From Ammoniphilus oxalaticus (GTDB taxonomy: Bacteria > Bacillota > Bacilli > Aneurinibacillales > RAOX-1), in contig NZ_MCHY01000013.1 of the NCBI RefSeq assembly GCF_003609605.1, positions 1 through 64,000 of the forward strand: DNA of 64,000 nucleotides, in the 5' to 3' direction. Made by a program: the position numbers and the translations under genes. The notes beneath the pieces were generated by a model, which ran no database searches, was not told the DNA's origin, and worked only from the letters and a program-made list of their open reading frames with translations. Of this stretch, positions 6,683-40,509 are shown one piece after another (positions within the stretch are counted from its first letter, which is position 1; every line of letters begins with the position of its first letter).

Positions 6683-6701
6683 TATTCCACCACCTTTTTG
6701 G

Positions 6702-6732
6702 CAAAACAAAAAGCGCCCTTAAATAGGCGCTT
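6702..6732 (-). terminator. intrinsic terminator after lipoprotein gene
   Basis: Inverted repeat AAGCGCC/GGCGCTT with an 8-base loop, followed on the minus strand by TTTGTTTTG. It lies just past the stop of the lipoprotein gene and before the tape measure gene. Confidence 0.8.
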
Positions 6733-14280: not shown

Positions 14281-15780
14281 TTATTCACCTACCCTAGCCT
14301 TAGGAGGTTGAATGAGTGTCGGATCCATTGAATCGATCATATTTTCGTCTTCAATTTTCCTGATCTCCGCCTGAATAGCTTCCTCGGACCAATCGGGATG
14401 AATGCGGCGGACTGTTGTTTCAAGCGATTGAACGCCCTGACTATACTTGTTCGATTCCTCGGTGTCACGTTCACTGTCCGCTTTAGGCATCATATCTCCC
14501 CACTCAATAACAGGCGCCATCACTTCCATATCAGCGCCACTCATCGCATTTTCTAAAATGACGCACTTGCGAATCGCATCTTTCATGGCAGTATCAAATT
14601 TGGCCTGAATCGCTTCAGCTTTGATAACCGATGTGATCCAGAGATACAGAAGCGCTATCCCCGTATTGCCCCTTCCATCCTTGATTCCCGCAGCTTCAGG
14701 AGATGTTTTAGATACGGCCATCATATATTCGATCAGCCTTGATACGTGTTTGTACGACTCTTCTAATTTAGCATCCCAAGTAATATATTGGGGAACCGCT
14801 CCGTTGTTTTCGTCATAGCTGACGACTTCCAGGTCAGCATTGCGAACAAAGTGTTGTCCATAATGCATGTTATTTTTTTGTGCAACGGTGTCCCACAATT
14901 TTCGAGGGATTGCCAGCTTCGGCTTACCGTGTTTGTCGAAAATAACAGCATCCCTGGTAATCGTCCAATTGATCTCCTCTTGTATCCCATCAACATTCCG
15001 CAGGGCGGAGCGCCCGCGCGGGTTAGGCAACGTCTCATCATTCGGCACATAACCGCATAGCAATTCGGTAACGCCCTCCAGCTCAACATTCTCGGGAATG
15101 AATAGCTCATATCGCTGCGCATATGCCTTGATGTCCATTTCATTGTTTACTGTCTTCCCTTCCATTTCAAAGACAAGTTGCTGAACAGATAATCCTGTCT
15201 CCGTTAAGCGTTGGCGCTCAATTCGTAAGTACTTCTCTTTCTTACTCTCTTCATCGCCCCACTCCTCAATCCAGGCGATATCCGCCCCGTCATCATCGTC
15301 GTGCGGAAAGTATTGGCAACCAGCAATCCACTCGAACCATACTTTCCCGCGATCATTACGTCGGATGCGGTACGCAACACGTCCATCAACCTGGTGCTGT
15401 GTGACGGCCGCCCATATCTTTTCGGTTGGCTTAGATGCATCGACAACAGATTCAACAAATTCAAGTTCGGGCCCTTCCTCAATATCGGCTGATATATTAC
15501 CAAGGGAGCGGTTAATGAGATCGGACGGCAACTCCGCTATTAGGCTTGAAAAGTTGACTACGATGTACTCCTGATTTGAAGATTCAAGTTGCTCAATGCG
15601 GCGCCATCTGTTTATACCCATTCGCTTCAAGCTGTATCTCTTTACTTGGCCAATCGTTCGGGCTCTCGGAAATATTTCTTCATGATCACCATCATACAAC
15701 TTTCGATAGTAGAACATTTCTGCTACTTCCGCGTCATAAGGCGGCGGAGGGAACGGCTTCTTGATGTATGAGATCGTCAT
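14281..15780 (-). CDS. portal protein (SPP1 family)
   Basis: About 499 residues. Start set at the ATG at 15780 (MTISYIKKPFPPPP), which follows GAAGGTGA by 6 bases. It has portal features: ELPSDLINRSLG near the N-terminus, EEINWTITRDAVIFDKHGKP in the middle and a long helical C-terminal stretch (DTEESNKYSQGVQSL). It forms the dodecameric ring through which DNA is packaged, with TerL encoded just upstream. Confidence 0.92.
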   Translation of the reverse strand: MTISYIKKPFPPPPYDAEVAEMFYYRKLYDGDHEEIFPRARTIGQVKRYSLKRMGINRWRRIEQLESSNQEYIVVNFSSLIAELPSDLINRSLGNISADIEEGPELEFVESVVDASKPTEKIWAAVTQHQVDGRVAYRIRRNDRGKVWFEWIAGCQYFPHDDDDGADIAWIEEWGDEESKKEKYLRIERQRLTETGLSVQQLVFEMEGKTVNNEMDIKAYAQRYELFIPENVELEGVTELLCGYVPNDETLPNPRGRSALRNVDGIQEEINWTITRDAVIFDKHGKPKLAIPRKLWDTVAQKNNMHYGQHFVRNADLEVVSYDENNGAVPQYITWDAKLEESYKHVSRLIEYMMAVSKTSPEAAGIKDGRGNTGIALLYLWITSVIKAEAIQAKFDTAMKDAIRKCVILENAMSGADMEVMAPVIEWGDMMPKADSERDTEESNKYSQGVQSLETTVRRIHPDWSEEAIQAEIRKIEDENMIDSMDPTLIQPPKARVGE

Positions 15781-15796
15781 GTATTTCACCTTCTTT

Positions 15797-17215
15797 CTAC
15801 CAGTTAGCAAAGCGTTCGCTGGACCACATCATTTCCTCCTCCGTTGCAAATGCAAGTGCAACTGCATCTGCTCTGTCTGGGGAATCAAGGCCGCGTTTCT
15901 TCATATCTTCTTTACGCTCCAACATGATTCGTCCCTTACTTGTTATTCTGTATTTTCTCGAAGTTAGTTGTGATATTAGCTCGTCATCATCTGGAAACTG
16001 AACGGTCCCTTCTGATCCTTGAAGATAAAGGCTTAAATTTTCCGTTAGCCAATCACGAACCGATGCCCATATTTCCGTACCTCGATTCTCATAATGTTCA
16101 GTGTCCTCGGCTTTTCTGCCATTCCCAATTGGAACAACGCGGATAGAAAAAGGAAATCTTTCCGTTTGGATTATTTCTTCTAGTTGGTCCGTAACGCCAC
16201 CACCGACACCATCATCATCCACTTTAATAACAACATCATTAATAAATGGATACCGCTCATGATAATCACGTGCTGTTCGGATGATGTGCCCTGTGGTTTC
16301 TGTTGTTCCTTGTTTGGTGTAGTCTTGCAAATCAAACAATCTCCCACCGATTCTTGGTGCAATTACAGTAGCATCATCACCATAACGCGCAACGTCAACA
16401 CCAAGATGTAGAGTGTTTCCTAACGGTACTACTTTTGTTTCTGTTGCCGTCTCCGCCAATTCTAAAGCGATAAATGCATCTGGTTCTGCTTTCGGAAACT
16501 CGCCATAAACACGAACACGAACAACATCACTGCCCTCTCCATACTTTCGGATTAGGCGCTCAATGTTTTCTTTGCTCGCCCTCGACGAGTCGTAACTGGA
16601 AACCTTATGAGTTTTGTAGTCTGCTCGATCACGATGATGGGAATCATAAAAAACCCCACTTGTTCGAGTCGGGTTCCCACACATCAGCAATTTGTTTTCA
16701 TGTCCTGACAATGTACCAAGAATAGCCTCCATGATATCATCAGCGACACCAGAAGCTTCATCGACAACAAATAACATATAATCCTCATGAAACCCCTGCA
16801 TGTTCTCAGGTTTCGTTGCCGTTCTGGCCGTAGCGAACCAGCGTTCTTCATTCCCTACCATGTACACCTTTGTTTTAGTCCATTTAAGGAAGTTCTTAAC
16901 CATCGACGATTCAAGCCACTTGGCAATCTCTGCCCATAGAACGTCATTGAGTTGTTGTCGAGTCGGGGCTGTGCATATCACCTTCGGGTTTGGTCGGCAG
17001 CATAAGTACCAAATAACCGCCACAGCCTCCAGCCCCGTTTTCCCAACCCCTTGCCCTGATCGGACAGAAACGAATGGATCAGTTGCCAAGTCATTGAGGA
17101 CATTTCGCTGCCAAGTGTCCGGGTAGAATTGAAGGATGTCTGCCGCGAAGGCAACAGGATCATCCCAATACACGTCGATAAGATCAACGAGCACGCTATG
17201 TGGCTTGTTACTCAT
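15797..17215 (-). CDS. terL: terminase large subunit
   Basis: 472 residues. Walker A SGQGVGKT near residue 55, Walker B MLFVVDEAS near 150, coupling motif GNPTRTSGVFYDS near 200, and RNase H-like nuclease acidic residues (LGVDVARYGDDATV, KVDDDGVGGGV, SPDRADAVALA). It powers and cuts DNA during packaging. It overlaps the small subunit gene by 8 bases. Confidence 0.95.
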   Translation of the reverse strand: MSNKPHSVLVDLIDVYWDDPVAFAADILQFYPDTWQRNVLNDLATDPFVSVRSGQGVGKTGLEAVAVIWYLCCRPNPKVICTAPTRQQLNDVLWAEIAKWLESSMVKNFLKWTKTKVYMVGNEERWFATARTATKPENMQGFHEDYMLFVVDEASGVADDIMEAILGTLSGHENKLLMCGNPTRTSGVFYDSHHRDRADYKTHKVSSYDSSRASKENIERLIRKYGEGSDVVRVRVYGEFPKAEPDAFIALELAETATETKVVPLGNTLHLGVDVARYGDDATVIAPRIGGRLFDLQDYTKQGTTETTGHIIRTARDYHERYPFINDVVIKVDDDGVGGGVTDQLEEIIQTERFPFSIRVVPIGNGRKAEDTEHYENRGTEIWASVRDWLTENLSLYLQGSEGTVQFPDDDELISQLTSRKYRITSKGRIMLERKEDMKKRGLDSPDRADAVALAFATEEEMMWSSERFANW

Positions 17216-24925: not shown

Positions 24926-25104
24926 GCCCCAGCAGCCCCTACGCCGAACCTTCGTTCAGCATCAGCAATCATTTGCCGCAACTCTTCCTCAGCCGCCGCC
25001 ACCTGCTCTTTGATTCGGGGCCCGCAATCAGGGCAGGGCATGAAGAAGACGGAGGAACTAAACGGAATCAGCATGGCGTTCGTGTTGTTGCACAGGCTAC
25101 ACAC
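24922..25104 (-). CDS. small zinc-ribbon-like phage protein
   Basis: 60 residues from a GTG at 25104 that overlaps the end of the DnaC-like gene; a longer ATG form begins at 25161. CSLCNNTNAM and CPDCGPRIKEQ give two Cys pairs, followed by an acidic helix. Confidence 0.6.
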   Translation of the reverse strand: MCSLCNNTNAMLIPFSSSVFFMPCPDCGPRIKEQVAAAEEELRQMIADAERRFGVGAAGA

Positions 25105-25969
25105 CGACGAAATGGTGACGCAATCGGTAGTTGAGTTCTCCAACCGTTTCCCCCTCCTCATAAAAAACTTTTACTAAGTTTTTGCCGCTCATTTCCATCA
25201 GCCGACTAGCCGTCGCTTCACCCAACATGGTGATAAGTTCAAGCTCATATTCAGACGTCCAAATGATCGGCAATCTATTAAAATATCGATGTTCAATCAA
25301 CCCGTACATTTCGTCGTGAACCCCTCTTGTGATGTCTGGTACACCGATTTGTGGATTAACTCTTCCCTTGCCGATGTCATCGATGAACAATACTTCGCAT
25401 TTTTGCAATGTTTCGCGAATCTTCTGGACCTGTAATCCACCGTTGTCGTACTGGCTAAACATTTCTTTGAACCCGTTTACGAAGTTGAAGTAGACAACCT
25501 GAACTCCTTGTTTCATGAGTTCATTCGCAACAGCGCAACCAAGATGCGTCTTGCCGATCCCGACTTCTCCAGCAAAGCCAATTGAATTGCCTTCTTCGAG
25601 TTTCCTCATGTTTTCAAAATCAAAGGCGTATTTTCTCGCAGTCTTCCAAAGTTCATCTAATCTTTCATCCCCAGCCCAGTTTCGATAGTTTTCAAAGGAC
25701 TTGGATAAAAACTCGTCTGATAGTTGACTCGATTTCATGAGCCGCTTAATCCGTCTAATTGCTTTACATTCGCAGTCACTCCAATATTCGGCTCCGTTTC
25801 GAATTCCATCAAAACGTATCCCCTTATCCTGACATGACTGACATTCAACCTTTTTTTCTTTCTCGTAAGGCTCGGATTTCATCTGCTGCGGTTCGCTGCC
25901 TTGGCGATCCCGAAGCAATTGCTCTATTCGGATTTTGATTTCCTCCGCTACGTCCGAAATCTTTTGCAT
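25097..25969 (-). CDS. DnaC-like helicase loader (IstB/DnaC ATPase)
   Basis: 290 residues from the ATG at 25969, which follows GGGGGGAACAG. Four Cys near the N-terminus (CQSCQDKG, CECK) form a zinc-binding part. AAA+ core: Walker A AGEVGIGKTHLGCA, Walker B VLFIDDIGKG, sensor WTSEYE and Arg finger region ASRLMEM. It loads the replicative helicase at the origin with the initiator encoded upstream. Its first 125 bases overlap the 3' end of that gene in another frame, and both readings look like protein. Confidence 0.9.
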   Translation of the reverse strand: MQKISDVAEEIKIRIEQLLRDRQGSEPQQMKSEPYEKEKKVECQSCQDKGIRFDGIRNGAEYWSDCECKAIRRIKRLMKSSQLSDEFLSKSFENYRNWAGDERLDELWKTARKYAFDFENMRKLEEGNSIGFAGEVGIGKTHLGCAVANELMKQGVQVVYFNFVNGFKEMFSQYDNGGLQVQKIRETLQKCEVLFIDDIGKGRVNPQIGVPDITRGVHDEMYGLIEHRYFNRLPIIWTSEYELELITMLGEATASRLMEMSGKNLVKVFYEEGETVGELNYRLRHHFVGV

Positions 25970-26960
25970 TTGATCTGTTCCCCCCTGTGGTTTTGAAAGC
26001 GGCAATGTGAGCCTTGATTTGATCAATGGTCTTTAAGCCATCCCGTTTCCAATTCTCTAAAATGCCATTAACATAATTCCATGTTCTAACATTGTTGAGG
26101 ATGGCAATCTTCATGGCTTCGACAATGACTTCTTCTGATTCATCAAAGAATTGCCCATCAAGCCAATACCCGATTTCTTCGCTTAGAAAAGAAGATATAG
26201 TCCCGAATCCATTTTTCTCCCAAAACACAAAAACGTTAGGTTTGTCCTTTACTACTACTACTAATTCTTTATTGTCTTTAACATTGTCTTTAATACTGTC
26301 TTTAGAGACCCCCTCAACCCTTGTTGCATAAGGGTTTTCTGACTGTCGAAGTTCCTGTTTTGGTAACTTTGGAGTTACTGTTTCGGTAACTTTCGAGTTA
26401 CTGTTTTGGTAACTGGTTACTGAATCGGTAACCTCAAAGTTCCTGTTTTGGTAACCTGAACTTACTGTTTCAGTAACTTCCCTGTTACTGTTTCGGTAAC
26501 TTTCTTCACCGTTAGTTCCTATTTCAGTAACTTTTGGGTTACTATTTTGGTAACTTTCAGTCGATAAACTTCCTGTTTTGGCAACCTTTTTTCGATCTCT
26601 CTCTAACAAATTAATGTGAATTAACTTTGAAAATTCATCTTCATTCCATGTTCTAATCGGCGCTATTTCCCACTTTTCACAATCCATTTCTAAGGCGAAG
26701 ATCATCCGATCCCGATCCCAACTTAGAACCCTTGCCCCCTCCAATCCTTCCAATTCCTTTCTAATGTGCGTGTTTCTTACCCCACAAATTTCAAAGTTCT
26801 TTAACCTCGGTATGTATGCCGAATCGCTTTGACAACCGATAGAAAGTCGGAGAACAAGGTGCAAGATGGACAATTGCCTCTTAGAAAAATCACGTCTGAT
26901 AATCTCGTCTAATATTTTATTTTCGATGCCAACAAAACTTTTCGATGGAGGTTTTGCCAT
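25845..26960 (-). CDS. phage replication initiator (O-protein/DnaD type) containing the origin
   Basis: 371 residues. Residues 1-100 form a winged-helix initiator domain (RRDFSKRQLSILHLVLRLSIGCQ, GVRNTHIRKELEGLEG). Residues 130-200 are a repetitive Ser/Asn/Thr/Glu-rich linker (SYQNSNPKVTE repeated) encoded by the iterons. Residues 240-310 form a DnaD-like C-terminal domain (VEAMKIAILNNVRTWNYVNGILENWKRDG). As in lambda O, the origin lies within the initiator gene. Start ATG follows GGGAGAGGTG. Confidence 0.9.
   Translation of the reverse strand: MAKPPSKSFVGIENKILDEIIRRDFSKRQLSILHLVLRLSIGCQSDSAYIPRLKNFEICGVRNTHIRKELEGLEGARVLSWDRDRMIFALEMDCEKWEIAPIRTWNEDEFSKLIHINLLERDRKKVAKTGSLSTESYQNSNPKVTEIGTNGEESYRNSNREVTETVSSGYQNRNFEVTDSVTSYQNSNSKVTETVTPKLPKQELRQSENPYATRVEGVSKDSIKDNVKDNKELVVVVKDKPNVFVFWEKNGFGTISSFLSEEIGYWLDGQFFDESEEVIVEAMKIAILNNVRTWNYVNGILENWKRDGLKTIDQIKAHIAAFKTTGGNRSNAKDFGRSGGNQNPNRAIASGSPRQRTAADEIRALRERKKG
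26230..26320. other. AT-rich stretch beside the iterons, possible unwinding element
   Basis: A long A/T-rich run (repeated TACTACTAC and TTGTCTTTAA units) lies directly next to the iteron array inside the same gene, as in lambda-type origins. Role inferred from position and composition. Confidence 0.45.
26351..26585. repeat. ten iterons, probable phage replication origin
   Basis: Ten copies of a 17-bp palindromic unit, consensus GTTACTGTTTCGGTAAC (arms GTTAC/GTAAC), start at 26351, 26374, 26397, 26416, 26439, 26461, 26484, 26515, 26538 and 26569. Most are 22-23 bases apart, about two helical turns; two gaps are 31. Because the spacing is not a multiple of three, the copies encode different peptides in turn. 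The initiator encoded by this same stretch is the likely binder. Confidence 0.88.
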
Positions 26961-27029: not shown

Positions 27030-27848
27030 TTAATCGAAATTAATTTCTCCTTCTTCGCTCGTTTCCTCTGCATCGGAAGCTTCAAAAGGAATATCCAACA
27101 CATCGACTGGCATCGGATCCTCTGTAATGTCCTTCCTGACTACCTCGTCCTGCGTCGCCGCCTGCTGGATCTCAATGCTGATCGGCAGGTACTTCCACAT
27201 ATGACGCACAACCGTTTTCTTTGCCATTTCCTCATAGTCCGTTACCCACGGACCGCCCTTAGATGCCGCGCTCCTATTTCGACGCTTGTCAATTTCCTCT
27301 TTCGGCATAAATTCAAATTGGTACCCACCGTCTTTAAAGTGGGCGACTGCATAAGCTCCAATGAAATCCCCTTGATCACTCATGGCTGGTTTGTGTACGA
27401 GATTAGGCTTCAATCCGTACTCATACTCAAATTCATCATTTTTATATACCGCGTGGGCGTAAATGCTTTCTATGTTCCCTGATCTGCGCGCCAGGTCGAT
27501 CATTCCTTTGTAGCCGATAATGAAAGTCGCTTCCTTGCCGTAGGGAATGATATAGCAATGTCCGATAAGGCCAGGCTCCAGGCCCAGCTGAGCCGATTGC
27601 ATCACTGCCCCCATAAGAGATGGGATGGTGCATTCCAATAGCTTCGGTGTCGTCCTGATCGTTGTTAGCGCAATCCGCGCGAGTCGATCCGCGTCCATGT
27701 GAGCTGGCAGGGCCTTTTCGATTTCAGGCGCCATTCTTTTTAAGTAAGCGGCAATCGTGTTTGCAGGGTTGTTATTCGTTGCCGCATTATTTCCTTGTCG
27801 GTTAGCCAATTGGTTTTTCAATTCGTTGCTCGTTGCTTTTGTGCTCAT
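27030..27848 (-). CDS. recT: RecT single-strand annealing protein
   Basis: 272 residues with the RecT core (TTPKLLECTIPSLMGAVMQSAQLGLEPG, CYIIPYGKEATFIIGYKGMIDLARRSG, YAHAVYKNDEFEYEYG). It anneals DNA strands after resection by the exonuclease encoded just upstream. Acidic C-terminus (DAEETSEEGEINFD). Ribosome site GGAGGCTGCT precedes the ATG. Confidence 0.95.
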   Translation of the reverse strand: MSTKATSNELKNQLANRQGNNAATNNNPANTIAAYLKRMAPEIEKALPAHMDADRLARIALTTIRTTPKLLECTIPSLMGAVMQSAQLGLEPGLIGHCYIIPYGKEATFIIGYKGMIDLARRSGNIESIYAHAVYKNDEFEYEYGLKPNLVHKPAMSDQGDFIGAYAVAHFKDGGYQFEFMPKEEIDKRRNRSAASKGGPWVTDYEEMAKKTVVRHMWKYLPISIEIQQAATQDEVVRKDITEDPMPVDVLDIPFEASDAEETSEEGEINFD

Positions 27849-27857
27849 AGCAGCCTC

Positions 27858-28799
27858 CTATTTAATTAAAAGTCTTCTAGCGAGTGTTGTTTTTCTGTAT
27901 TTCTCAAATAAATCCTCATGGTCTTTTCGGAAAGATTTTGAATCAAATCGAGTCGTCTCGTAACTTCTCCAAGTAACCTCTCTATCTCCGATAACCCCAG
28001 ATTCAAAATCACCTAGCATCGATTTCAGTTTGTTTTCATACTCTTTCCTTGTTGTCTCTAAATCCTTCTCGTCTTGCTTTAGCTGTTCGATGGCAGTGAT
28101 CAAAGCGTTAGCTTCATCAGGAAGCTCCGTTTGACTGCCATCCTCGCTTTTAGGGTAAAGTTCACTTAAAAGTTTGGTGGATGCGTCACTTCCATCGAAC
28201 GCAGGAGGGGCTTTCTTCAATACATGCTCCTCCCAAAACTCTTTCCCGATATCGAAAAGGTACTGAATTAATTCGTCGTCACGCTCGACATATTTCATAA
28301 TGAATTTATTGCCGCCGATCAAGGTTGCGAAGTAACCCCATTGCAAACCTGTCACAAACAAATACCATTGAATCTGTGTTAAGTAGCTTGCTGGAACTTC
28401 ATCATCAGTCCATTGATCCTTCAAGTACTCTGAGGTTGTTTTAACTTCTAAAATGCCGTGCCCTTTCTCTCTATCAATAATGAGCCGGTCAATGTTTGCC
28501 AGCGCCCACTCATGCTCTAGATGCTGCAGAATTGCGTTTCTCCTTTCGACTCTGAATCCTGTTCTAAAAGAAAATTCTTTCGCAACAACATCTTCTAAAA
28601 TTCTCCCGAAGTACATAGCCTCGTTATCTTCTTGCTCTGGCAATTCCCCTAGCTTGTCCATATAAACAGAGACAGGAGAACTCCATTTATTAATGCCGCA
28701 TATCGCGCCAATGTCCGAACCCGTAATTCCTCTCCTGCGCCATTCAAGCCATTCCTTATCAGTAATATCAGTTGTATTCACCAACCTGATCGCTTGCAA
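27858..28799 (-). CDS. YqaJ-family phage recombination exonuclease
   Basis: 313 residues. YqaJ/lambda-exo-like nuclease: WLEWRRRGITGSDIGAICG, then the PD-(D/E)xK core ANIDRLIID and HGILEVKTTS, then YLTQIQWYLFVTG. Paired with RecT, it forms a Red-like recombination module. The last 90 residues are a coiled coil. Confidence 0.92.
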   Translation of the reverse strand: MQAIRLVNTTDITDKEWLEWRRRGITGSDIGAICGINKWSSPVSVYMDKLGELPEQEDNEAMYFGRILEDVVAKEFSFRTGFRVERRNAILQHLEHEWALANIDRLIIDREKGHGILEVKTTSEYLKDQWTDDEVPASYLTQIQWYLFVTGLQWGYFATLIGGNKFIMKYVERDDELIQYLFDIGKEFWEEHVLKKAPPAFDGSDASTKLLSELYPKSEDGSQTELPDEANALITAIEQLKQDEKDLETTRKEYENKLKSMLGDFESGVIGDREVTWRSYETTRFDSKSFRKDHEDLFEKYRKTTLARRLLIK

Positions 28800-30252: not shown

Positions 30253-30366
30253 GTCCTCATCCCCCTTTTTTCTATGTCTATGCGGGGAACGGAGTGGGAC
30301 AACCCTGTTAGTTTGATTCATGTTCAACCTCCTTTGACCAAAGAATCTTTGAAAGGATGACCTGTT

Positions 30367-31679: not shown

Positions 31680-31931
31680 CTAGCTCACCTCCTTTCGGGG
31701 GTTGGATTCTATTTTTGATGATGAATGACGCGTTTCGTGACATTCATCATCAAAAAAAAACGTCCAATCAATCTTTAGAGCTTTTGCAATTCTTTTTGCT
31801 ACAGGAACACTAGGCATTCTTTTATCTTGTTCAATCATTGCATAAGTGGTTCTTGCAATAGATGACCTGTTGGCCACTTCTTCTTGTGTAAGTCCGAGTT
31901 GGTTACGCTTATTTACCAACCATAACCTCAT
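31680..31931 (-). CDS. Cro-like XRE regulator (lytic side)
   Basis: 83 residues from the ATG at 31931, after GAGGTGGTGAT. HTH: KRNQLGLTQEEVANRSSIARTTYAMIEQ. First gene of the leftward lytic operon, divergent from the CI-like repressor and separated by the operator region. Confidence 0.85.
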   Translation of the reverse strand: MRLWLVNKRNQLGLTQEEVANRSSIARTTYAMIEQDKRMPSVPVAKRIAKALKIDWTFFFDDECHETRHSSSKIESNPRKEVS

Positions 31932-31948
31932 ACTTATCACCACCTCTT

Positions 31949-32053
31949 TGTCACGTTTAGTGTACTTATGTCTTTATAATATTACACATTTCGCGTATAG
32001 TCAATACTCTTTTACACTTTTTGTGTAATTGATTGATGTCACTCATTGTGTAG
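31949..32053. promoter_or_regulatory. lysogeny switch operators
   Basis: Four copies of a 17-bp palindrome, consensus TTACAC-N5-GTGTAA: 31949-31965 (TGTCAC/GTGTAC), 31982-31998 (TTACAC/GCGTAT), 32012-32028 (perfect: TTACACTTTTTGTGTAA) and 32037-32053 (TGTCAC/GTGTAG). They overlap the spacers of both divergent promoters, so the CI- and Cro-like proteins are the likely binders. Confidence 0.75.
31976..32004 (-). promoter_or_regulatory. leftward (lytic) promoter
   Basis: TTGACT, 17-base spacer, TATTAT on the minus strand. The spacer is filled by the operator at 31982-31998. Confidence 0.7.
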
Positions 32054-32060
32054 TTATAAT
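32033..32060 (+). promoter_or_regulatory. rightward (repressor) promoter
   Basis: TTGATG, 16-base spacer, TATAAT. Operator 32037-32053 lies between the two boxes. Predicted start is only a few bases before the ribosome site GGAGGTGATC. Confidence 0.7.
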
Positions 32061-32083
32061 TGAATTATATGGAGGTGATCAAA

Positions 32084-32782
32084 TTGTTTGGTGATCGTTT
32101 AAAAAACCTAAGAAAAGAAAAGAAATTACGCCAAGAAGATGTAGCTAACAAAATTGGAACCGCCAGAACTACATACGCAATGTATGAGCAAGGCAAGCGC
32201 GAACCTGATAATGAAACCCTCCTGAGACTTTCTGATTTCTTTGGTGTAAGTGTCGACTTCCTGCTAACCGGGGAAATGAAAGGACAATTAATGATTGACT
32301 TTAATAAAGAGGATGTAACTTCTTTTATTGAAGATCCGGCACACGTAAAGTTTTCTAATCGTTTCAGAAAACTCGCCGAGGATCACAACATGGATCCATC
32401 TAAATTAGCAATAGAATTTGGAGTATCTGATGAAAACATTCGTGATCTTATGAATTATAGATCGCTTCCTAGCAATGGATACTTAGAGGAAATTTCGAAG
32501 TTCTTTAACGTATCAACTGACTACCTTCTAGGACGGACTGATGATCCTCGGGGAGTACACTCAACAAACAAAGTCACCGTTGCTGGTCAAGAAATCAACC
32601 TATCTTTAGATGAATTGAAACTATTTGAAGAGTTGAGGAAGCACCCCGTCCTCTTCCACGACTTGGCTACGAATCCAGAAGCAAAAGTAAAAGAACTTAT
32701 CAAGCTCTATAAGATGAAGAAGATATTATTGGATGAAGACGATGAGGAATTTGGGGAAGGGTTTGGGGAGTTGGAAGATTAG
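32084..32782 (+). CDS. CI-like repressor with two HTH domains
   Basis: 232 residues. I use the TTG at 32084 because GGAGGTGAT sits just before it; the upstream ATG overlaps that site. N-terminal HTH (RKEKKLRQEDVANKIGTARTTYAMYEQGKREPD), second HTH-like segment about residue 100 (SKLAIEFGVSDENIRDLMNY), and an acidic C-terminus. No LexA-type Ser/Lys protease motif was seen, so inactivation probably needs another protein such as the ImmA-like gene downstream. Confidence 0.85.
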   Translation: MFGDRLKNLRKEKKLRQEDVANKIGTARTTYAMYEQGKREPDNETLLRLSDFFGVSVDFLLTGEMKGQLMIDFNKEDVTSFIEDPAHVKFSNRFRKLAEDHNMDPSKLAIEFGVSDENIRDLMNYRSLPSNGYLEEISKFFNVSTDYLLGRTDDPRGVHSTNKVTVAGQEINLSLDELKLFEELRKHPVLFHDLATNPEAKVKELIKLYKMKKILLDEDDEEFGEGFGELED

Positions 32783-32802
32783 ATAAAAGTTGAGGTGAGG
32801 AA

Positions 32803-33690
32803 GTGAGAAAAAGTTACGGAAATGAAGAACTCGAAGAAGGTTTTCGAATCTTCTTTAAACCGTATTTAGAGGGGTATAGAGAGCGTGTAAATACTCTTTA
32901 TCCAGATGAACACGCCGACAGCGACATTTTCACTTATATGAAACCAGTACATCTTCACGTGCTGCTGCATGATAGCGACACACACCTTCTATTTGCAAGG
33001 GATGAAGAGGATGGATTAACGTTCATTGATTGTATGGCTATTGATGAAGATGAATTCGATCATATTTCAAGCAGCTCGGATAAATTGATGAATAAATTTG
33101 TTTATTCCGTATCCGGATTGAACGATTATTTAACCGTTTTTCATTTTAGTAGGTTGGGGGAATATGCAGGCATTTCCTTTTCAGAGTCTAACAGAGGCAC
33201 TTTAGTAGGTTCCGCAAGGAAATGGGGAGTCGAAAAGGCTGATGATCACTATTCCGCATATAAATTTAGTAAAGCACTAGAAAGAGCCATCTCCCCTTCG
33301 ATCGAACTTGCAACCATTAATACAGATGAAGTACTTGAACGTGTGCAAGACCCTTCATTTCAATATGAATTTGGCGAATCCGCTAAAGCTTATAATGCAG
33401 GATTATATTTAGCTGCCGCTTCAACCGCTGGTATTGCTTTGGAAAATATACTAAGACTGATAATTACTAAAGTGTTCGGGCGGGATAAGCTTCCAAGTAA
33501 GTCATATATTATAGATTCTCTTCTTGTTTTAGATAGGAAAAAGGTGTTGCCCGGAAGATTGCGGAATGAAGTTTGGGCACAAAACGGCATTCGGAATAGC
33601 AATGCGCACACTAATGAAGATCCGGTGAAAAAAGAAACAGTTGAAACGTTATATAGACTCATCAACGAGTTGTCATTCTTTATTACTTAA
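32803..33690 (+). CDS. HEPN-type protein in the lysogeny region, candidate defence gene
   Basis: 295 residues, GTG start after GAGGTGAGG. The N-terminal 170 residues match nothing I recognise. The C-terminal 110 residues are helical and resemble HEPN/DUF4145-like domains (AYNAGLYLAAASTAGIALEN, then IRNSNAHTNED with the R-x4-H pattern of HEPN ribonucleases, Arg about 264, His about 269). It is downstream of the repressor, so it should be made in the lysogen. An RNase-type abortive-infection role is inferred. Confidence 0.65.
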   Translation: MRKSYGNEELEEGFRIFFKPYLEGYRERVNTLYPDEHADSDIFTYMKPVHLHVLLHDSDTHLLFARDEEDGLTFIDCMAIDEDEFDHISSSSDKLMNKFVYSVSGLNDYLTVFHFSRLGEYAGISFSESNRGTLVGSARKWGVEKADDHYSAYKFSKALERAISPSIELATINTDEVLERVQDPSFQYEFGESAKAYNAGLYLAAASTAGIALENILRLIITKVFGRDKLPSKSYIIDSLLVLDRKKVLPGRLRNEVWAQNGIRNSNAHTNEDPVKKETVETLYRLINELSFFIT

Positions 33691-33840
33691 TTTTTCTTTG
33701 GCCTTTTTAAATTGACCTAATAATATACCGGCTTCTTCAATGCCCCATTCATGAAAATCTGATTCCAATGCAGAAATAATTGTTTCGATTTCATCAAATG
33801 TTAATGCGACGAGCGACACTTGCGTTTCAATAACTTTCAT
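33673..33840 (-). CDS. small antisense-oriented gene within lysogeny region
   Basis: 55 residues on the minus strand, ribosome site GGTGGAG. Starts MKVIETQVSLVALTFDEIET and ends in a basic helix. It overlaps the end of the HEPN gene by 18 bases and faces away from the ImmA gene. Good codon use and a clear ribosome site support it; role unknown. Confidence 0.6.
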   Translation of the reverse strand: MKVIETQVSLVALTFDEIETIISALESDFHEWGIEEAGILLGQFKKAKEKLSNKE

Positions 33841-33891
33841 ATTATCTCCACCCTTCTTAACTTGATTGTACTATACAAAGGCAGTGGTTTC

Positions 33892-34476
33892 ATGCGACTT
33901 AAACAACAAATACATACCGACTACTGGGAAGAACGCGCCAACAAAGTACTCTCCCACTTCAACTATAACTTCCCAGATGAAATCGATATGTACGACATCT
34001 GTTGGCGTTACGGCATTCGGATCATGCCTCTTGATTACCCATTTCTAGATCAATATGTTCAACTGGAATCAATTGAGAACTTAGATGCCTTTTCCATTCC
34101 AAAAGAAAAAGGACGACGAGGGATAATATTTATTAGAGAAGATCTAAATTCGATTGAAAAGAAACTATTGCTTGCAGAAGAATTTTGTCACATCTATTCG
34201 CACCACACATCACAATTAAACTTAGACAAGCATGGTGTTGCAAAAATAGAAAACCAAGCAAAGAGGATGTCCGCTTACTTATTAATGCCTAGTAAATTTA
34301 TCGAAACTATTTATGATGCCGCGGTCGATGAAGCTGTTCTAATCACGGATATTGCGGATTACTTCCTCGTAACAGAGGAATTCGCTCACTATCGAATGGA
34401 ACTGATATTTAACCGCAGAGTAGATGGCTTCTCTTTCTTAAAAGGGAATATTGGGACCATTCAGTGGTTTGAGTAA
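33892..34476 (+). CDS. ImmA/IrrE-like protein with altered zinc motif
   Basis: 194 residues from the ATG at 33892 (MRLKQQIHTDYWEERANKVL). The fold region fits ImmA/IrrE proteases that cleave phage repressors (RGIIFIREDLNSIEKKLLLAEEFCHIYSHH). The zinc motif usually reads HExxH; here the first His is Glu (EEFCH). Either the zinc is bound differently, using the following His residues, or peptidase activity is lost. Ribosome site is weak (AAAGG). Confidence 0.8.
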   Translation: MRLKQQIHTDYWEERANKVLSHFNYNFPDEIDMYDICWRYGIRIMPLDYPFLDQYVQLESIENLDAFSIPKEKGRRGIIFIREDLNSIEKKLLLAEEFCHIYSHHTSQLNLDKHGVAKIENQAKRMSAYLLMPSKFIETIYDAAVDEAVLITDIADYFLVTEEFAHYRMELIFNRRVDGFSFLKGNIGTIQWFE

Positions 34477-34528
34477 GCAATTTTTGTTCAGAGAAGTTTC
34501 ACGTGAAGGAACAAACAGGTTGAAGCCC

Positions 34529-34557
34529 TTGATCAGGCTATACGATCTCTTCATAAT
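34529..34557 (+). promoter_or_regulatory. promoter of DUF6978-DUF1828 gene pair
   Basis: TTGATC, 17-base spacer, CATAAT, about 40 bases before the first gene, so the pair is transcribed on its own rather than only from the repressor promoter. Confidence 0.6.
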
Positions 34558-34596
34558 TGAAGTATATATGAATATAAATTAGGGGAGAAGTCTATC

Positions 34597-35064
34597 ATGT
34601 TAACAGATAAAGAAGCAAAACAACTCTTCGAAGCAATAAAGGATTTAGTAGAAAACAAACCAATTGACTTTCCCCAATTAGGTGATTCGATACAACTGGA
34701 TGTTGTAAGCACTTTTGATAACGACAGGTTTATTATAGACATACAACGAAAAGGGCAAATTAACATAAAAAAATGTACTTACCAAACAAGGTATCAAAGG
34801 GTTGTTCCTTTATTTAGAATTGACATCGAAGGTCCGCCACATCAAAATCCAGATCTTGAGATAATCCCTTGTCCACATATCCATGTATACCGTGAGGGGT
34901 TTGGGGATAAATGGGCCTATCCTTTGGACGAATATATCGATACAGAAGCAAGTGATTTGGGTAGGGTGCTCTTTGATTTTTTGAAGTATAATAATATTAG
35001 AAACATACCTCAAATTCGGTATCAGGGAAGTGATTTGTTTAATGGATCTTCAGGGGAAACTTAA
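34597..35064 (+). CDS. DUF6978 family protein
   Basis: 155 residues, ATG after GGGGAGAAG. Conserved-looking segments RFIIDIQRKGQINIKKCTYQ and PHIHVYREGFGDKWAYPL match the DUF6978 family as I know it. It overlaps the DUF1828/DUF1829 gene by 23 bases. Pairs of this kind are found in phages and mobile elements; a defence or toxin-antitoxin-like role is possible but not established. Confidence 0.75.
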   Translation: MLTDKEAKQLFEAIKDLVENKPIDFPQLGDSIQLDVVSTFDNDRFIIDIQRKGQINIKKCTYQTRYQRVVPLFRIDIEGPPHQNPDLEIIPCPHIHVYREGFGDKWAYPLDEYIDTEASDLGRVLFDFLKYNNIRNIPQIRYQGSDLFNGSSGET

Positions 35065-35809
35065 AAGTTCATATTTGGACTGGTTAAATGAAAGAATTTC
35101 ATTGCGAAGTATAAACGGAGCCATTGAAATTACCTCTCCTATGTTGGATCGGCATAATGACTTCCTTCAGATTTATGTCGTGCCCGATGGAGATGCATTC
35201 AGGCTCACTGATGATGGATATATAATTAATGATCTTCTTATGTCCGGTTGTGAAGTTGACTCAACTCCGAGAAGAAAAGAGATTTTTCAGTTATTGTTGA
35301 ATGGTTATGGAGTCCAAAGATCTGACAGGGACGAGCTTTTTATAAAAGCTGACATTGGTGACTTCCCGCAAAAGAAACACTTGCTCCTCCAGGCGATGCT
35401 ATCAGTAAATGATATGTTTATGGTAGCAAGACCACATGTACAAAGCATTTTCTTAGAAGATGTGGAAAACTTTTTATTAGATAATGATATTCGTTTTTTC
35501 GAAAACATCAACTTTAGTGGAAGAAGTGGCTATAGTCACACGTTCGACTTTGGAATACCAAAATCAAAAGCTAGTTCAGAAAGGCTCATAAAAACAATTA
35601 ACCATCCCACAAGGGATGCTTCACAAGCCCTGTTGTGGGCGTGGAGTGATACGAAAGAGGCTAGAAAAGGCGATCCAACCCTTTATGCTTTTTTAAACAA
35701 TTCAGATTCAACTATAAAAAACGACGTCATTGATGCTTTATCAAGATATGATGTTAAAACCGTGCTTTGGACTGAAAGAGATAAATACATCAGTGAATTG
35801 ACCGCTTAA
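35042..35809 (+). CDS. DUF1828/DUF1829 protein
   Basis: 255 residues from the ATG at 35042. N-terminal DUF1828 (NGAIEITSPMLDRHNDFLQI, GDAFRLTDDGYIINDL) and C-terminal DUF1829 (NFSGRSGYSHTFDFGIPKSK, ASQALLWAWSDTKEARKG). The C-terminal region has a nuclease-like alternation of strands and charged residues, but no catalytic motif is certain. Coupled to the gene before it. Confidence 0.8.
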   Translation: MDLQGKLKSSYLDWLNERISLRSINGAIEITSPMLDRHNDFLQIYVVPDGDAFRLTDDGYIINDLLMSGCEVDSTPRRKEIFQLLLNGYGVQRSDRDELFIKADIGDFPQKKHLLLQAMLSVNDMFMVARPHVQSIFLEDVENFLLDNDIRFFENINFSGRSGYSHTFDFGIPKSKASSERLIKTINHPTRDASQALLWAWSDTKEARKGDPTLYAFLNNSDSTIKNDVIDALSRYDVKTVLWTERDKYISELTA

Positions 35810-35875: not shown

Positions 35876-37444
35876 ATGCAACGCCCCACTAACTTAGACG
35901 TTTTTATCTATTTGAGGAAGAGTCGTAAGGATATAGAAGAAGAACGTAAGGCAATTGAAAATAATACTCACTTTGACACGCTGGATAAACACAGAAATGA
36001 GTTGCTGGAACTCGTTAAGCGCGAGAAGCATCATGTTGTGGACATTTTTTCCGAGGTCGTATCCGGTGAATATCTGTCCGAGAGAGATGTTGCACAAGAG
36101 ATGTTGAGGCAAGTTGAGGAAGGATCTGTTGACGGGGTCGTTGTCATGGATCTGGATCGACTAGGCCGCGGTGACATGATCGATGCAGGGACCATTTTTC
36201 GCTCCTTTAAGTATTCCGAGACGCTGATCATCACGCCCCACGAAGTCATCAATTGTAACTCTGAGGGCGCAGAGCTGTTGTTTGGGATCAAGTCCATTAT
36301 AGCCCGTGAAGAATTAAAGCAGATCAACAAGAGGCTACAGGGCGGTCGTAGAAGGTCGGCAAGGGATGGCAGATCGATCACCCGCAGGCCGCCATATGGA
36401 TACGACAGGGATGAGGATTTAAAGCTGATCCCCAACCCAGATCAGGCATCGGTTATTAAAAAGATTTTTGAGTTGATATCTAATGGACAAGGACGACAAG
36501 CTGTAGTAAAGCAGTTGGACTCGCTAGGCTATAAGCCGCCAGAGGGCGATCTTTGGGAGCAATCCACTATTAGTTATATTATCAAAAATGAAGTGTACCT
36601 GGGGCACATCGTATGGGGCAAGCGACGAAATATAAAAAGGAATGGCAAGTATATTTCGAGGGCCGTTCCACCAGATCAATGGACACGCCATGACAACGCC
36701 CATGAGCCCATTATATCGCAGGAACTGTTTGACCAAGCGAATCTTGCTCTAAGTAGTCGCTGGAGACCCCCAACACGAGATGGGACTACGCTTACCAATC
36801 CTTTAGCTGGTATTGTGAAGTGTGGCGTATGTGATCGTGCCATGTACTATCTACCAAAAAAGGATCGTCCGAACCCCCAATTTCGATGCATCAACTCTCG
36901 ATGCCAAGGCATACAGAAAGGCGCCATGTTTTATTTGGTAGAAGAAAGATTGATAGAGTCACTTAGACATGTCGTAAACGAATTTGCGACCAACCAAAAA
37001 ATGATTGCATCCGCTTCACCGGACAACAAAAGCAACCCAGAAGAAATTATCGGGCGGAAGAAAAAGCAAATAGAGAAACTGGAGAGTGAAATAGAAGAGT
37101 TAAATCAGATGCGACAGACTGCCTATGAAATGTTGGAACGAAAAATATACACCGAGGAAATCTTTCTTGAGCGCCAGAAGGCAAATTCAGAAAAGATGAA
37201 AGATGTTGAAAAATCCATTGCGGAGCTTCAGGATGAAATTGAACTGGAAGAACATCGGATGAAACACCAAAAGACGATCATCCCAAAAATCCGAGCTGTT
37301 TTAGAAACATATAATAAACTCGATGATCCAGAGAAAAAAAATAACCTTCTCAAGTCGGTCGTTGAGAAGGCGCACTTCATCAGAAAAAAGGAATGGACCA
37401 AAAGGGACCATTTTGAATTAGAAGTTTTTCCAAGGCTGCCCTGA
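35876..37444 (+). CDS. large serine recombinase (prophage integrase)
   Basis: 522 residues, ATG after AAGGAGG. N-terminal resolvase domain with catalytic Ser in YLRKSRKD and VVVMDLDRLGRGD; recombinase domain (RRPPYGYDRDEDLKLIPNPDQ); zinc-ribbon domain (CGVCDRAMYY...CINSRCQG); long coiled coil about 385-475. It both integrates and, with a partner factor, excises the prophage. It ends 30 bases before the truncated yhbH, so this is the attachment-site side. Confidence 0.95.
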   Translation: MQRPTNLDVFIYLRKSRKDIEEERKAIENNTHFDTLDKHRNELLELVKREKHHVVDIFSEVVSGEYLSERDVAQEMLRQVEEGSVDGVVVMDLDRLGRGDMIDAGTIFRSFKYSETLIITPHEVINCNSEGAELLFGIKSIIAREELKQINKRLQGGRRRSARDGRSITRRPPYGYDRDEDLKLIPNPDQASVIKKIFELISNGQGRQAVVKQLDSLGYKPPEGDLWEQSTISYIIKNEVYLGHIVWGKRRNIKRNGKYISRAVPPDQWTRHDNAHEPIISQELFDQANLALSSRWRPPTRDGTTLTNPLAGIVKCGVCDRAMYYLPKKDRPNPQFRCINSRCQGIQKGAMFYLVEERLIESLRHVVNEFATNQKMIASASPDNKSNPEEIIGRKKKQIEKLESEIEELNQMRQTAYEMLERKIYTEEIFLERQKANSEKMKDVEKSIAELQDEIELEEHRMKHQKTIIPKIRAVLETYNKLDDPEKKNNLLKSVVEKAHFIRKKEWTKRDHFELEVFPRLP

Positions 37445-37460
37445 TCGGCGGCCTTCTTTT
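37432..37460 (+). terminator. terminator at end of integrase gene
   Basis: AAGGCTGCC/GGCGGCCTT stem (one G-U pair) with 6-base loop, then CTTTTGG. The left arm overlaps the last codons. Confidence 0.7.
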
Positions 37461-37500
37461 GGTTATATGGTGGTTAACTATACTGATTTACCTCCCCGTA
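37455..37500. other. probable prophage-chromosome junction (attachment site)
   Basis: To the left is the integrase terminator, to the right the yhbH frame, which is conserved up to GYGEVNQYS and then stops. The recombination core should lie here; its exact bases cannot be defined without the other end. Confidence 0.65.
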
Positions 37501-38496
37501 CCCGAACATGTTCGAACGCTCCATTAATTCTTTTACTAATCGGGTGCAGCGTTCATTATCCGATGTCAGGTTATCGCCATCTGAAAAATGGAACGGGTAA
37601 ATATTGTATTGCGAAGGCGGATATCTCGTATCGATAATTTCCAACGCCTTCCGATAGGCGGATGAGCAGATCGTCCCTCCACTCTCGCCCCTTGAGAAGA
37701 AGTGCTCTTCTGTAACCTCTTTCGCTTCGGTATGATGGGCAATAAATACGATTTCAACCTTCTCATACTTGGTGCGTAAAAATCGGGTCATCCAAAAGAA
37801 AAAACTACGCGCGATATACTTCTCAAACACACCCATACTCCCACTGGTATCCATCATGGCAATGACTAAGGCGCTTGATTCAGGCTTGGTAATTTCATCC
37901 CATGTTTTAAAGCGAAGATCATCATTCGTAATATTCTCTAGCTTGGCCTTTCCTTCCATCGCGTTTCGTTTAATCGCTTCAAGGATCGTCCGTTTTTTGT
38001 CGATGTTCCCCATCAGACCCTTTTTGCGAATATCATTGAATTCGATATCGGTGACAACGATCTCTTGCTGTTCTTTTTGTTCTAGGTTAGGTAGCTCCAT
38101 TTCTGAAAAGAGCATCTCTTCCAACTCTTCTACAGAAATTTCCGCCTCATAATAGTCCTCGCCAGGTTGATCTCCCGCTTCTTTTCCTTTGCCGGGCGCT
38201 GGAGCGGGGGAACCATCGCGGGCGATCACATCGCCCACTTTGGATTCTCCGTCCCCCTGACCAACCTGCTTACTCTTATTATAGTTATAACGGAATCGAT
38301 ATTCGTCCAACGAACGGATAGGAATTTTCACTAGATCCCGACCATCTGATAAAATAATGCTTTCTTCGCTAACAAGGTCCGGCAAGTTTTGCTTGATTGC
38401 CTCTTTCACCTTTTCCTGGTGCCTGAGTTGATCCTGATAGCCTTTGCGATGAAGTGACCAGTCTTCTTTAGAAACGATGAACAATGGCTCTTTCAT
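37474..38496 (-). CDS. yhbH: YhbH (UPF0229) sporulation protein, C-terminus removed by prophage
   Basis: 340 residues, about 45-50 shorter than YhbH as I know it. VWA-like domain with MIDAS motif MMDTSGSMG about residue 213; N-terminal [26 protein letters not shown] is typical. The frame follows the family to [12 protein letters not shown] and then meets TAA exactly where the prophage begins. In B. subtilis, yhbH and prkA are sporulation genes (to my knowledge in the mother-cell sigma-E regulon). The missing 3' part is expected on the far side of the prophage. The truncated protein may be inactive unless the prophage excises. Confidence 0.88.
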
Positions 38497-38562: not shown

Positions 38563-40461
38563 CTAGCGATTTAATAAGCTGCCAACATAGCGCAGAAGTT
38601 CATTCGCGCAATAAGGACAGTAGTTATAGTCATCGATCAGACGTTTTGTCACTTCATTTACTTTCCTCAGTTGACTTTCATCAGGTGTTTTTGATGAGGT
38701 CGTAATTTTTACGACATCTTTTAGATCCGCGAATAATTTCTTTTCAATCGCTTCTTTTAATCGTTCATGATTATTATATTCAAAGCGTCTCCCTTTGCGC
38801 GCAAAGTGCGAAATGCGAATCAGAATTTCTTCACGGAACGCTTTTTTTGCATTTTCAGAAATCCCAATTTGCTCCTCAATCGATCTCATTAACTTCTCAT
38901 CCGGATCGAGCTCTTCTCCCGTCACTGGGTCACGCATTCTCGTTCGATTGCAATAGGATTCAACGTTATCCAAGTAGTTATCCATTAACGTTTTTGCTGA
39001 CTCCTCGTAAGAATACACGAATGCTTTTTGCACTTCTTTTTTTGCTACTTCATCGTATTCCTTGCGGGCAACGGAAATAAAGTTCAAATAACGCTCTCTT
39101 TCTTCTTTTGTAATCGAAGCGTGTTGATCTAACCCTTCCTTAAGAGCCCTTAAAATGTCTAAAGCGTTAATGCATTCCGTATCGCGTCGGATTAACGCGC
39201 TAGAAATACGGTTAATAACATATCTGGGGTCAATTCCGGACATCCCTTCATCCAGATGCTCATTTCTTAACTCTTTAATATCGGCCTCTTTAAATCCTTC
39301 TACATTTTCTCCATCATACAACTTCATTTTCTTGAGTAGATCCATCCCTTGCTTCTTTGAATCTTTTAATCTCGTTAAGATGGAGAAGATCGCAGACGTC
39401 CTCAAGCCATGCGGCGCCACGTGCACATGGCCAAGATCACTTTGACTAATTAACTTCGCGTAAATCTTCTCTTCATCCGAAACTTTGAGATTATAAGGGA
39501 TTCTCATCACAATAATTCGCGATTGCAAGGCTTCGTTCTTTTTATTACTAATAAAATTGCGATATTCCGTTTCATTCGTATGAGCAACAATCAATTCATC
39601 CGCGGAAATAAGCGCAAACCGTCCGGCTTTAAAATTCCCTTCCTGTGTCAATGAAAGCAAGTTCCAAAGGAACTTCTCATCACACTTCAACATCTCCTGA
39701 AATTCCATTAGTCCGCGGTTGGCCTTATTTAACTCCCCATCGAAACGATATGCTCTCGGATCAGATTCAGATCCAAATTCAGCGATCGTGGAAAAGTCAA
39801 TGCTACCGGTCAGGTCGGCGATATCTTGCGATTTCGGATCAGATGGGCTAAACGTCCCAATCCCCACACGATCCTTCTCAGATAAAATGATACGCTCCAC
39901 GACGACATCCTCAATTCGACCGCCATACTCTGTCTCAACCATCATCCGTGTATACGGATTCAATTCACCTTCAATTTTGACGCCAAATCTTTCTTCAAAC
40001 TCAGGGCGCAAATCGTGCGGAACGAGCAACAACGGTTCTTGGTGCATCGGGCAACCTTTTATTGCAAACACAGCGCCTTGATCCGTCTTCGAATATTGCT
40101 CAAGACCCTTCTTTAACATACTCACAATTGTTGATTTCCCGCCACTGACAGGCCCCATCAACATCAAGACACGTTTTCTTACATCTAGCCTCATCGCCGC
40201 AGAGTGGAAATATTCTTCCACTAATTTTTCAACCGCTCGATCTAACCCAAAAATCTCTCGGGTGAAAAATTTGTACTCCTTCGTGCCGTCCTCATTTTGC
40301 TCGATGCCGGCGTCCTTAATCATGTTATATACTCTAGAATGGGCGGTTTGAGCAATCTGCGGAGTCTCTTTCACTAACTCAAGATATTGCGCAAACGTAC
40401 CCTCCCAGGCCAACTTCTTTTCATTCAAGCGATGCTCATTCAAGCGTCTAATAATATCCAT
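38563..40461 (-). CDS. prkA: PrkA, AAA+/kinase-like sporulation protein
   Basis: 632 residues from the ATG at 40461 (MDIIRRLNEHRLNEKK), after GGAGAGGAGG. Walker A MGPVSGGKST about residue 105; C-terminal PrkA domain (FGSESDPRAYRFDGELNKANRGLMEFQEMLK, NYCPYCANELLRYVGSLLNR). It forms the usual partner gene of yhbH (as yeaG-yeaH in E. coli), 66 bases upstream on the same strand. PrkA affects sporulation in B. subtilis; substrate unclear. Confidence 0.95.
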   Translation of the reverse strand: MDIIRRLNEHRLNEKKLAWEGTFAQYLELVKETPQIAQTAHSRVYNMIKDAGIEQNEDGTKEYKFFTREIFGLDRAVEKLVEEYFHSAAMRLDVRKRVLMLMGPVSGGKSTIVSMLKKGLEQYSKTDQGAVFAIKGCPMHQEPLLLVPHDLRPEFEERFGVKIEGELNPYTRMMVETEYGGRIEDVVVERIILSEKDRVGIGTFSPSDPKSQDIADLTGSIDFSTIAEFGSESDPRAYRFDGELNKANRGLMEFQEMLKCDEKFLWNLLSLTQEGNFKAGRFALISADELIVAHTNETEYRNFISNKKNEALQSRIIVMRIPYNLKVSDEEKIYAKLISQSDLGHVHVAPHGLRTSAIFSILTRLKDSKKQGMDLLKKMKLYDGENVEGFKEADIKELRNEHLDEGMSGIDPRYVINRISSALIRRDTECINALDILRALKEGLDQHASITKEERERYLNFISVARKEYDEVAKKEVQKAFVYSYEESAKTLMDNYLDNVESYCNRTRMRDPVTGEELDPDEKLMRSIEEQIGISENAKKAFREEILIRISHFARKGRRFEYNNHERLKEAIEKKLFADLKDVVKITTSSKTPDESQLRKVNEVTKRLIDDYNYCPYCANELLRYVGSLLNR

Positions 40462-40509
40462 GAGGGCCTCCTCTCCTTTTATCAGAAAAACCGACATTGG
40501 GGGATAAGT

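Follow-up and report, generated by a model that had tools for sequence, protein, structure and literature searches.

A prophage within the sporulation gene yhbH of Ammoniphilus oxalaticus: a candidate for sporulation-timed excision

Introduction

The window analysed here, a 64,000-nucleotide stretch of Ammoniphilus oxalaticus DNA (positions 1-64000 of contig NZ_MCHY01000013.1, hereafter C13), carries a prophage whose large serine recombinase (LSR) gene converges on yhbH, a sporulation gene (PMC3533761, PMC517825), at the point where yhbH departs from its family. The question raised by this locus is whether the phage has simply inactivated yhbH or whether its excision could rebuild the gene when the host sporulates. 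Such rebuilding is described for SPbeta, skin and phi3T (PMC4191935, PMC6957869), and the consulted parts of the literature report split forms of sigK, spsM, spoVFB and spoVR (PMC4191935), gerE (PMC5595907), kamA (PMC6957869) and yabG (PMC10747680). A sequence-only reading of the window had proposed that yhbH is interrupted in the same manner. The open-licence literature, taken without supplementary recombinase catalogues, yielded no description of yhbH (DUF444/UPF0229) as an integration site. The terms yhbH, attP and attB are absent from a paper on Brevibacillus phages (PMC4909266), and YhbH is mentioned among Paenibacillus larvae prophage proteins in a study whose consulted part makes no comment on an attachment site (PMC9341999).

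Results

The two halves of yhbH join in frame

The yhbH reading frame in the window ends ...GYGEVNQYS* after 340 codons, and 29 bases separate its stop codon from that of the LSR gene (Table 1), in agreement with the distance of about 30 bases noted in the sequence-only reading; prkA upstream was intact with both of its domains, as had also been stated. The continuation NRHSTLMS... was present in yhbH at 14 of 19 relatives' loci (L002-L020), and the five departing loci (L005, L006, L008, L010 and L016) are insertions at the same yhbH codon; at L010 the junction enters N and the far half of yhbH was not found. The missing 46 codons occur once in the A. oxalaticus genome (G000), at C8:1220-1378. 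Searching the genome with a DUF444 profile brought up one additional weak match, at C8:1226-1360 (E 0.068), and the full-length YhbH of a relative used as query matched the same fragment at 1e-20. The fragment reads ...YQYNRHSTLMSAYKHINDPKFKHCVIREKGEVYKALTTFFKKEEGIKL* and is followed by spoVR (PF04293, 518 bits). No second full-length yhbH was found in searches of this genome, as had been anticipated.

It had also been anticipated that the 3' end of yhbH would lie beyond the left of the window, and the location on C8 bears this out if the contigs are ordered C13-C12-C8. The assembly (3.32 Mb, 13 contigs, 99.93% complete) includes C13 at 171,764 bp and C12 at 12,707 bp, the latter overlapping the left end of C13 by 352 bp with 1 mismatch and carrying an amidase/glucosaminidase gene and the continuation of a tail-type protein. 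A collagen-like gene begins at the other end of C12, and C8 opens with a C-terminus of matching kind (TIGR03721, exosporium glycoprotein BclB-related, 216 bits); among the 26 contig ends examined, collagen repeats were present only at the start of C12. Because of the overlap and the shared collagen-like gene ends, we infer the order yhbH 5' - C13 - C12 - C8 - yhbH 3', with an unsized gap within the collagen gene. The prophage would then comprise C13:1-37484, C12 and C8:1 to approximately 1235, about 51 kb plus the gap.

The LSR has Resolvase and Recombinase domains above their cut-offs and a zinc ribbon just below (22.7 versus 25.3 bits), and it fits a temperate-phage large serine integrase in its domains, its symmetrical attP and the 2-bp core that this symmetry implies. 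The frame was restored in all seven split genes whose halves were joined at the CA of this Gln codon (G000, G005, G012, G013, G014, G118 and G139), and the rejoined 16-residue stretch was identical across them except in G012, where T replaces the second G. The attP sequences were symmetrical around the same CA in 8/8 tested, including that of the Brevibacillus phage Jimmer1. In seven of the eight, 18-24 of 29-30 pairs matched (P <= 0.0034, the lowest being 0 of 5000 arm shuffles); the attP of the A. oxalaticus prophage was the weakest (15/30 pairs, P 0.018), and the crossover centre was set by the symmetry in relatives rather than by this attP. In an open search for the symmetry centre, the four other attPs tested agreed on the CA. 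The clear direct repeat expected over 37455-37500 did not materialize: attL and attR differ at two bases of the shared core, which is short here (ATCA, then interrupted identity), and attP symmetry was used in its place to position the crossover. With both halves kept and an in-frame empty site, the skin- or SPbeta-like arrangement proposed earlier, a prophage inside yhbH with its own recombinase at the junction, stands. That this is an insertion that retains both halves and can be precisely reversed on paper appears close to certain.

A recombinase family that enters yhbH at one codon

A yhbH gene was present in all 15 genomes of the order searched; it was intact in nine and inserted at this codon in six, being truncated in G000, G005, G006, G012 and G013 and given a substitute end in G014. 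The junction in G006 lies in N, and the far half of yhbH was not found in that genome. Matches to the LSR above 1000 bits occurred in exactly the six genomes with an invaded yhbH (62-96% identity among the elements), and weaker paralogues (360-400 bits) in 5/15. The elements measure 10.3 kb in G013, 10.6 in G005, 24.8 in G012, approximately 51 in G000 and approximately 66 in G014. Those of G013 and G005 keep the LSR, the att sites, an open 3' half of yhbH and the small protein described below, and among 16 open reading frames (ORFs) scanned in the two, some small ORFs being left out, there was no terminase, portal or head gene. The C-terminal part of a subtilisin-like protein of G013 matches 'major tail protein' and 'endolysin' families, replication-initiation and antitoxin families were also matched, and a G005 protein matches a tape-measure family weakly (5.8e-4), its far better match being to a family of unknown function. 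The G005 element also carries a truncated sigE (L039:6721-7083, profile positions 22-140 of 234), divergent from the small gene. The prophage arm of G014 codes for a substitute C-terminus of divergent sequence (NSSGSIRKSTLMSVFEKI..., L040 2209-2365), so that the att arm doubles as coding sequence, and the native yhbH end lies about 66 kb away.

Among 161 sampled genomes of the class, 117 had a yhbH match. Separate C-terminal fragments were present in at least eight (G000, G005, G012, G099, G118, G125, G139 and G158, the last of the restoring kind) and yhbH stops at the same residue in G006 and G183, giving at least 10/117 split genes, or at least 6/104 when the 13 genomes of the order are excluded. 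The LSRs facing the cut were 67% (G118), 37% (G125), 41% (G099), 38% (G183) and 60% (G139) identical to that of the window. In the single-contig genome G139, which we call Brevibacillus-like for the closeness of its prophage to phage Jimmer, yhbH is broken into three pieces (L150 1268-17865): a 15.5-kb element cuts inside MDTSGSM|G and a Jimmer-like prophage occupies the usual codon. The LSR of the first insert is distantly related (25% identical), its best NCBIfam match being CcrC, below cut-off. That element also encodes a D-serine ammonia-lyase and a permease-like gene, and no phage genes were recognized in it by eye.

Searching genome contigs with the LSR yielded 26 loci, three of which (L045, L063 and L070) are G014, G013 and G006 again. 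In 19/26 a yhbH frame comes to its stop no more than 6.5 kb from the LSR; in L048, L052 and L066 the locus ends just beyond the LSR, with a YhbH C-terminal match, and L062 and L064 extend only 1.5 kb and 56 bases beyond it. In L057 and L067, whose LSRs belong to the same family, no yhbH lies within 10 kb beyond the recombinase and one intact-length yhbH is present elsewhere in the genome; these LSRs probably use other attachment sites. Among the 19, nine elements truncate the gene (in Melghiribacillus, Anoxybacillus caldiproteolyticus, Bacillus chungangensis, B. pinisoli, Fredinandcohnia, Anaerobacillus, two Aneurinibacillus and Sutcliffiella). In the other ten, including Geobacillus jurassicus, Anoxybacillus voinovskiensis, Paenibacillus sp. 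FJAT-29882 and Aneurinibacillus sp. Ricciae_BoGa-3, the frame is completed by an end adjoining the LSR, which we read as element-borne. A whole-genome search of 22 of these genomes (that of L066 being left out, and the three Aneurinibacillus being covered by the search of the order) recovered the displaced 3' half as a match of its own in 18, and nothing but one intact-length match in G050, G051, G055 and G058. On a tree of 37 classable LSRs the truncating or restoring state changes at least eight times; this is a quick tree with several long branches, 10 open forks and no shuffle test. Conservation of the C-terminal end of YhbH is strong whether the gene is intact or split.

A small protein that accompanies the recombinase

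All six elements of the order encode a small protein of about 65-75 aa (short form), its core resembling GNTTIKIRSALPFM..E...WF..N..LPEV, which the nine genomes with an intact yhbH lack. Using tblastn (E up to 0.05, with five matches above 0.001), homologues were found in 47 of 56 further LSR loci, a set in which many are near-identical viral contigs and many have short flanks; none was detected in L048, L052, L064, L065, L072, L091, L093, L096 and L101. We propose the small protein as a candidate recombination directionality factor (RDF), because it is the only gene recognized as common to this phage and the G013 and G005 elements besides the LSR and att sites; the proposal draws on co-occurrence with the LSR only. 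In Jimmer1 the corresponding part lies within a longer protein, gp66 (L103 2236-2661), that has a helix-turn-helix-like part and is annotated as a transcriptional repressor.

Upstream of the small gene, about 30 nt before the start of the short form, 24/24 chosen representatives have a CATAnRnAT box. The CATA part is present in all of these and position 6 is A in 22 and G in two, with an upstream GTYGTCC part kept in some of the 24 only. In the fuller list of loci, L062, L095 and L097 are without the box, its position in L057 reads CATAAAGTA, and for L071, L074, L100 and L103 the region upstream of the small gene lies outside the stretch compared. A scan of viral contigs with the box pattern matched 45 stretches. 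Two roles were considered for GTYGTCC-N14-CATAnRnAT, that of a promoter and that of a hairpin hiding the ribosome-binding site; a consensus fold of the 24 sequences gave no structure, and we claim neither role.

The resident prophage and a second split gene

By the genes scanned, the prophage looks near-complete and of the tailed, temperate type. Phage families were matched by 9/9 window proteins in the PHROGs scan, a transcriptional regulator included. Near the right end of the prophage there is a collagen-like BclB-type gene (L035 start, minus strand; L031:1-534), possibly spore-surface cargo.

Table 1. Features of the window, in window coordinates
Feature	Position	Strand	Remarks
Large serine recombinase (LSR), 522 aa	35876..37444	+	convergent to yhbH; phrog_95 integrase, 1.7e-109
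attL-type junction	37454..37515	-	crossover probably at the CA dinucleotide 37484-37485, within the Gln codon of V-N-Q-Y
yhbH, 5' part, 340 aa	37474..38496	-	PF04285 (YhbH/DUF444), 342 bits; prophage arm supplies stop codon
prkA, intact host gene upstream of yhbH	38563..40497	-	PF08298 and PF06798
Candidate RDF, short form, 74 aa	30028..30252	-	longer form from 30321 also with ribosome-binding site
GTTGTCC-N14-CATAnA box upstream of candidate RDF	30277..30303	-	sole match to pattern in window
Lytic-side phage genes	1..31314	-	includes tail-type protein cut by contig end
Tape measure	2696-6709	-	lytic side, PHROGs match
Major head	10771-11889	-	lytic side, PHROGs match
Minor head	13232-14278	-	lytic side, PHROGs match
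Portal	14281-15810	-	lytic side, PHROGs match
Terminase	15797-17215	-	lytic side, PHROGs match
DnaC-like	25097-26026	-	lytic side, PHROGs match
RecT	27030-27848	-	lytic side, PHROGs match
RecE-like	27858-28799	-	lytic side, PHROGs match
Lysogeny region	31680..35809		helix-turn-helix regulators, IrrE-type peptidase, DUF6978, DUF1828/1829

The sigK gene of the same genome is also in two pieces (C8:218048-218464 and C8:213814-214074, minus strand) with an LSR between them, in a skin-like element of about 4 kb, and spoIVA is intact. If the strain sporulates, it must already splice sigK. This element (C8:213814-218464, L165) contains a cation/proton antiporter-like gene, recognized by eye, and a small divergent ORF whose match to the candidate-RDF profile was not significant (E 1.2).

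Discussion

We propose that a temperate tailed phage used its own LSR to integrate into yhbH, at the CA of the Gln codon within the conserved stretch V-N-Q-Y-N-R-H-S, in a host with the order prkA-yhbH-spoVR, and that yhbH would remain in two halves during growth of the lysogen. In the sporulating mother cell the small protein, acting as directionality factor, would turn the LSR from integration to excision, and yhbH would be rejoined in frame before YhbH is needed alongside PrkA and SpoVR; the forespore genome would retain the prophage. We put the probability of such a sporulation-timed switch at roughly 0.57, and the interpretation offered by the sequence-only reading is partly supported. 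The case for the switch rests on the shrunken elements, on the existence of a restoring alternative and on the precedent of skin, and not on a promoter or an expression result; the split sigK of this genome lends it further indirect support.

Several observations weigh against the proposed switch. The small protein is matched by neither Pfam nor PHROG, its similarity to SprB, the SPbeta counterpart, is not significant, and it was not found in G099, G125 and G183 (4.5-21 kb examined per genome). In none of the six elements of the order did the 420 bp preceding the GNT core of this protein contain a recognizable sigma-E/sigma-K consensus promoter, a consensus that is also mentioned in the SPbeta work (PMC4191935). 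The conserved box resembles a sigma-E/K -10 element but A replaces the conserved T at consensus position 8, and it is common to truncating and restoring elements. For these reasons, the missing T, the failure of the consensus in 6/6 and the sharing with restoring elements, the box was not counted in favour of sporulation control. In the truncating element of Sutcliffiella horikoshii (G057:C7:44539-45429, L065) the 5' half of yhbH is without residues ~208-248, DTSGSMG included, and the small protein was not found in the 21.5-kb locus; the gene looks decayed and lost there. The attP of the A. oxalaticus prophage scored best at other centres in the open symmetry search. Finally, the proportions of non-synonymous and synonymous differences (pN/pS) in the 3' half of yhbH give no date for the insertion, synonymous sites being close to saturated in every pair but G005/G008, a weak exception with pS 0.45 and pN 0.000 over 42 codons.

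A simpler explanation, which we consider rather unlikely, is that yhbH is merely the attachment site of a phage family, so that lysogens are without functional YhbH and the prophage leaves only upon DNA damage. The free phage Jimmer1, with its LSR, small-protein homologue and intact attP, suggests that the module serves ordinary lysogeny, and the apparent completeness of the prophage here, the lack of a recognized sporulation promoter before the small gene and the internal deletion in Sutcliffiella would all suit plain inactivation. What such an account leaves unexplained is that elements without recognized head or packaging genes retain the excision module and both open halves, and that substitute 3' ends recur across the LSR tree, as if the loss of YhbH were costly. 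The same substitute ends, which some of the related elements carry and which replace exactly the missing part, together with the conservation of the YhbH C-terminus in intact and split genes, make it improbable that the truncated 340-residue YhbH still functions with its last 46 codons dispensable and the insertion cheap, even though the truncation spares most of the protein, the DTSGSMG stretch included. An assembly error or pseudogene remnant might be suspected from a window that begins at a contig end with the far half of yhbH on another contig; this is hardly credible, as the same structure lies on one contig in the single-contig assemblies G005 and G139, in G012, G013 and G014 and in several named genomes, and in this genome the two halves are both open and fit together in frame.

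The closest parallel to the proposed switch is SPbeta in spsM of Bacillus subtilis (SprA/SprB), likewise a tailed prophage in a sporulation gene with an LSR at one end and the 3' half of the gene at the other, and with precise in-frame rejoining (here on paper). It differs in gene and att site, its LSR is only 28% identical over 94%, and its sporulation timing has been measured (PMC4191935), whereas here such timing is a proposal. According to the consulted part of the same account, the sporulation transcript of sprB starts 20 nt upstream of the start codon, from a promoter whose -10 is perfect and whose -35 is imperfect; following mitomycin treatment, sprB is transcribed from an upstream phage operon (PMC4191935). 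Skin in sigK (SpoIVCA/Skr) is also an LSR-bounded element that splits a mother-cell gene, but a different one, and the element in the window is a near-complete phage. The elements vrin in spoVR of Geobacillus thermoglucosidasius, vfbin in spoVFB, gin in gerE, phi3T in kamA and yin in yabG likewise intervene in sporulation genes; none lies in yhbH in the consulted parts of their descriptions, and spoVR, the target of vrin, adjoins yhbH here. The Brevibacillus phages Jimmer1, Jimmer2, Osiris and Powder all have an LSR 61% identical over 100% to that of the window and are free phages, unlike the prophage studied here; Jimmer1 has a matching intact attP, and the small protein has homologues in Jimmer1 and Jimmer2, with no match at E 0.1 in Osiris or Powder.

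Perhaps, and we offer this tentatively, a single LSR family spread by phages targets one codon of yhbH throughout the Bacillales, which would make yhbH the most widely exploited split sporulation gene known. The damage would be solved by either sporulation-timed excision or a replacement 3' end, the two being interchangeable with at least eight switches between them; degenerate members would be pure splicing elements, and one lineage would have to splice two elements from one gene.

If the proposed switch is correct, yhbH joins sigK, spsM, spoVFB, spoVR, gerE and kamA (and yabG, which has been reported too) among the sporulation genes spliced at the DNA level, and the addition falls in the same cluster, prkA-yhbH-spoVR, as spoVR. 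The analysis also offers a set of serine integrases with their att sites and candidate directionality factors. The truncating and gene-restoring members of this one LSR family amount to a natural experiment on the choice of sporulation genes by phages, as matched elements that differ in this trait may be compared to learn whether excision in the mother cell is selected or incidental.

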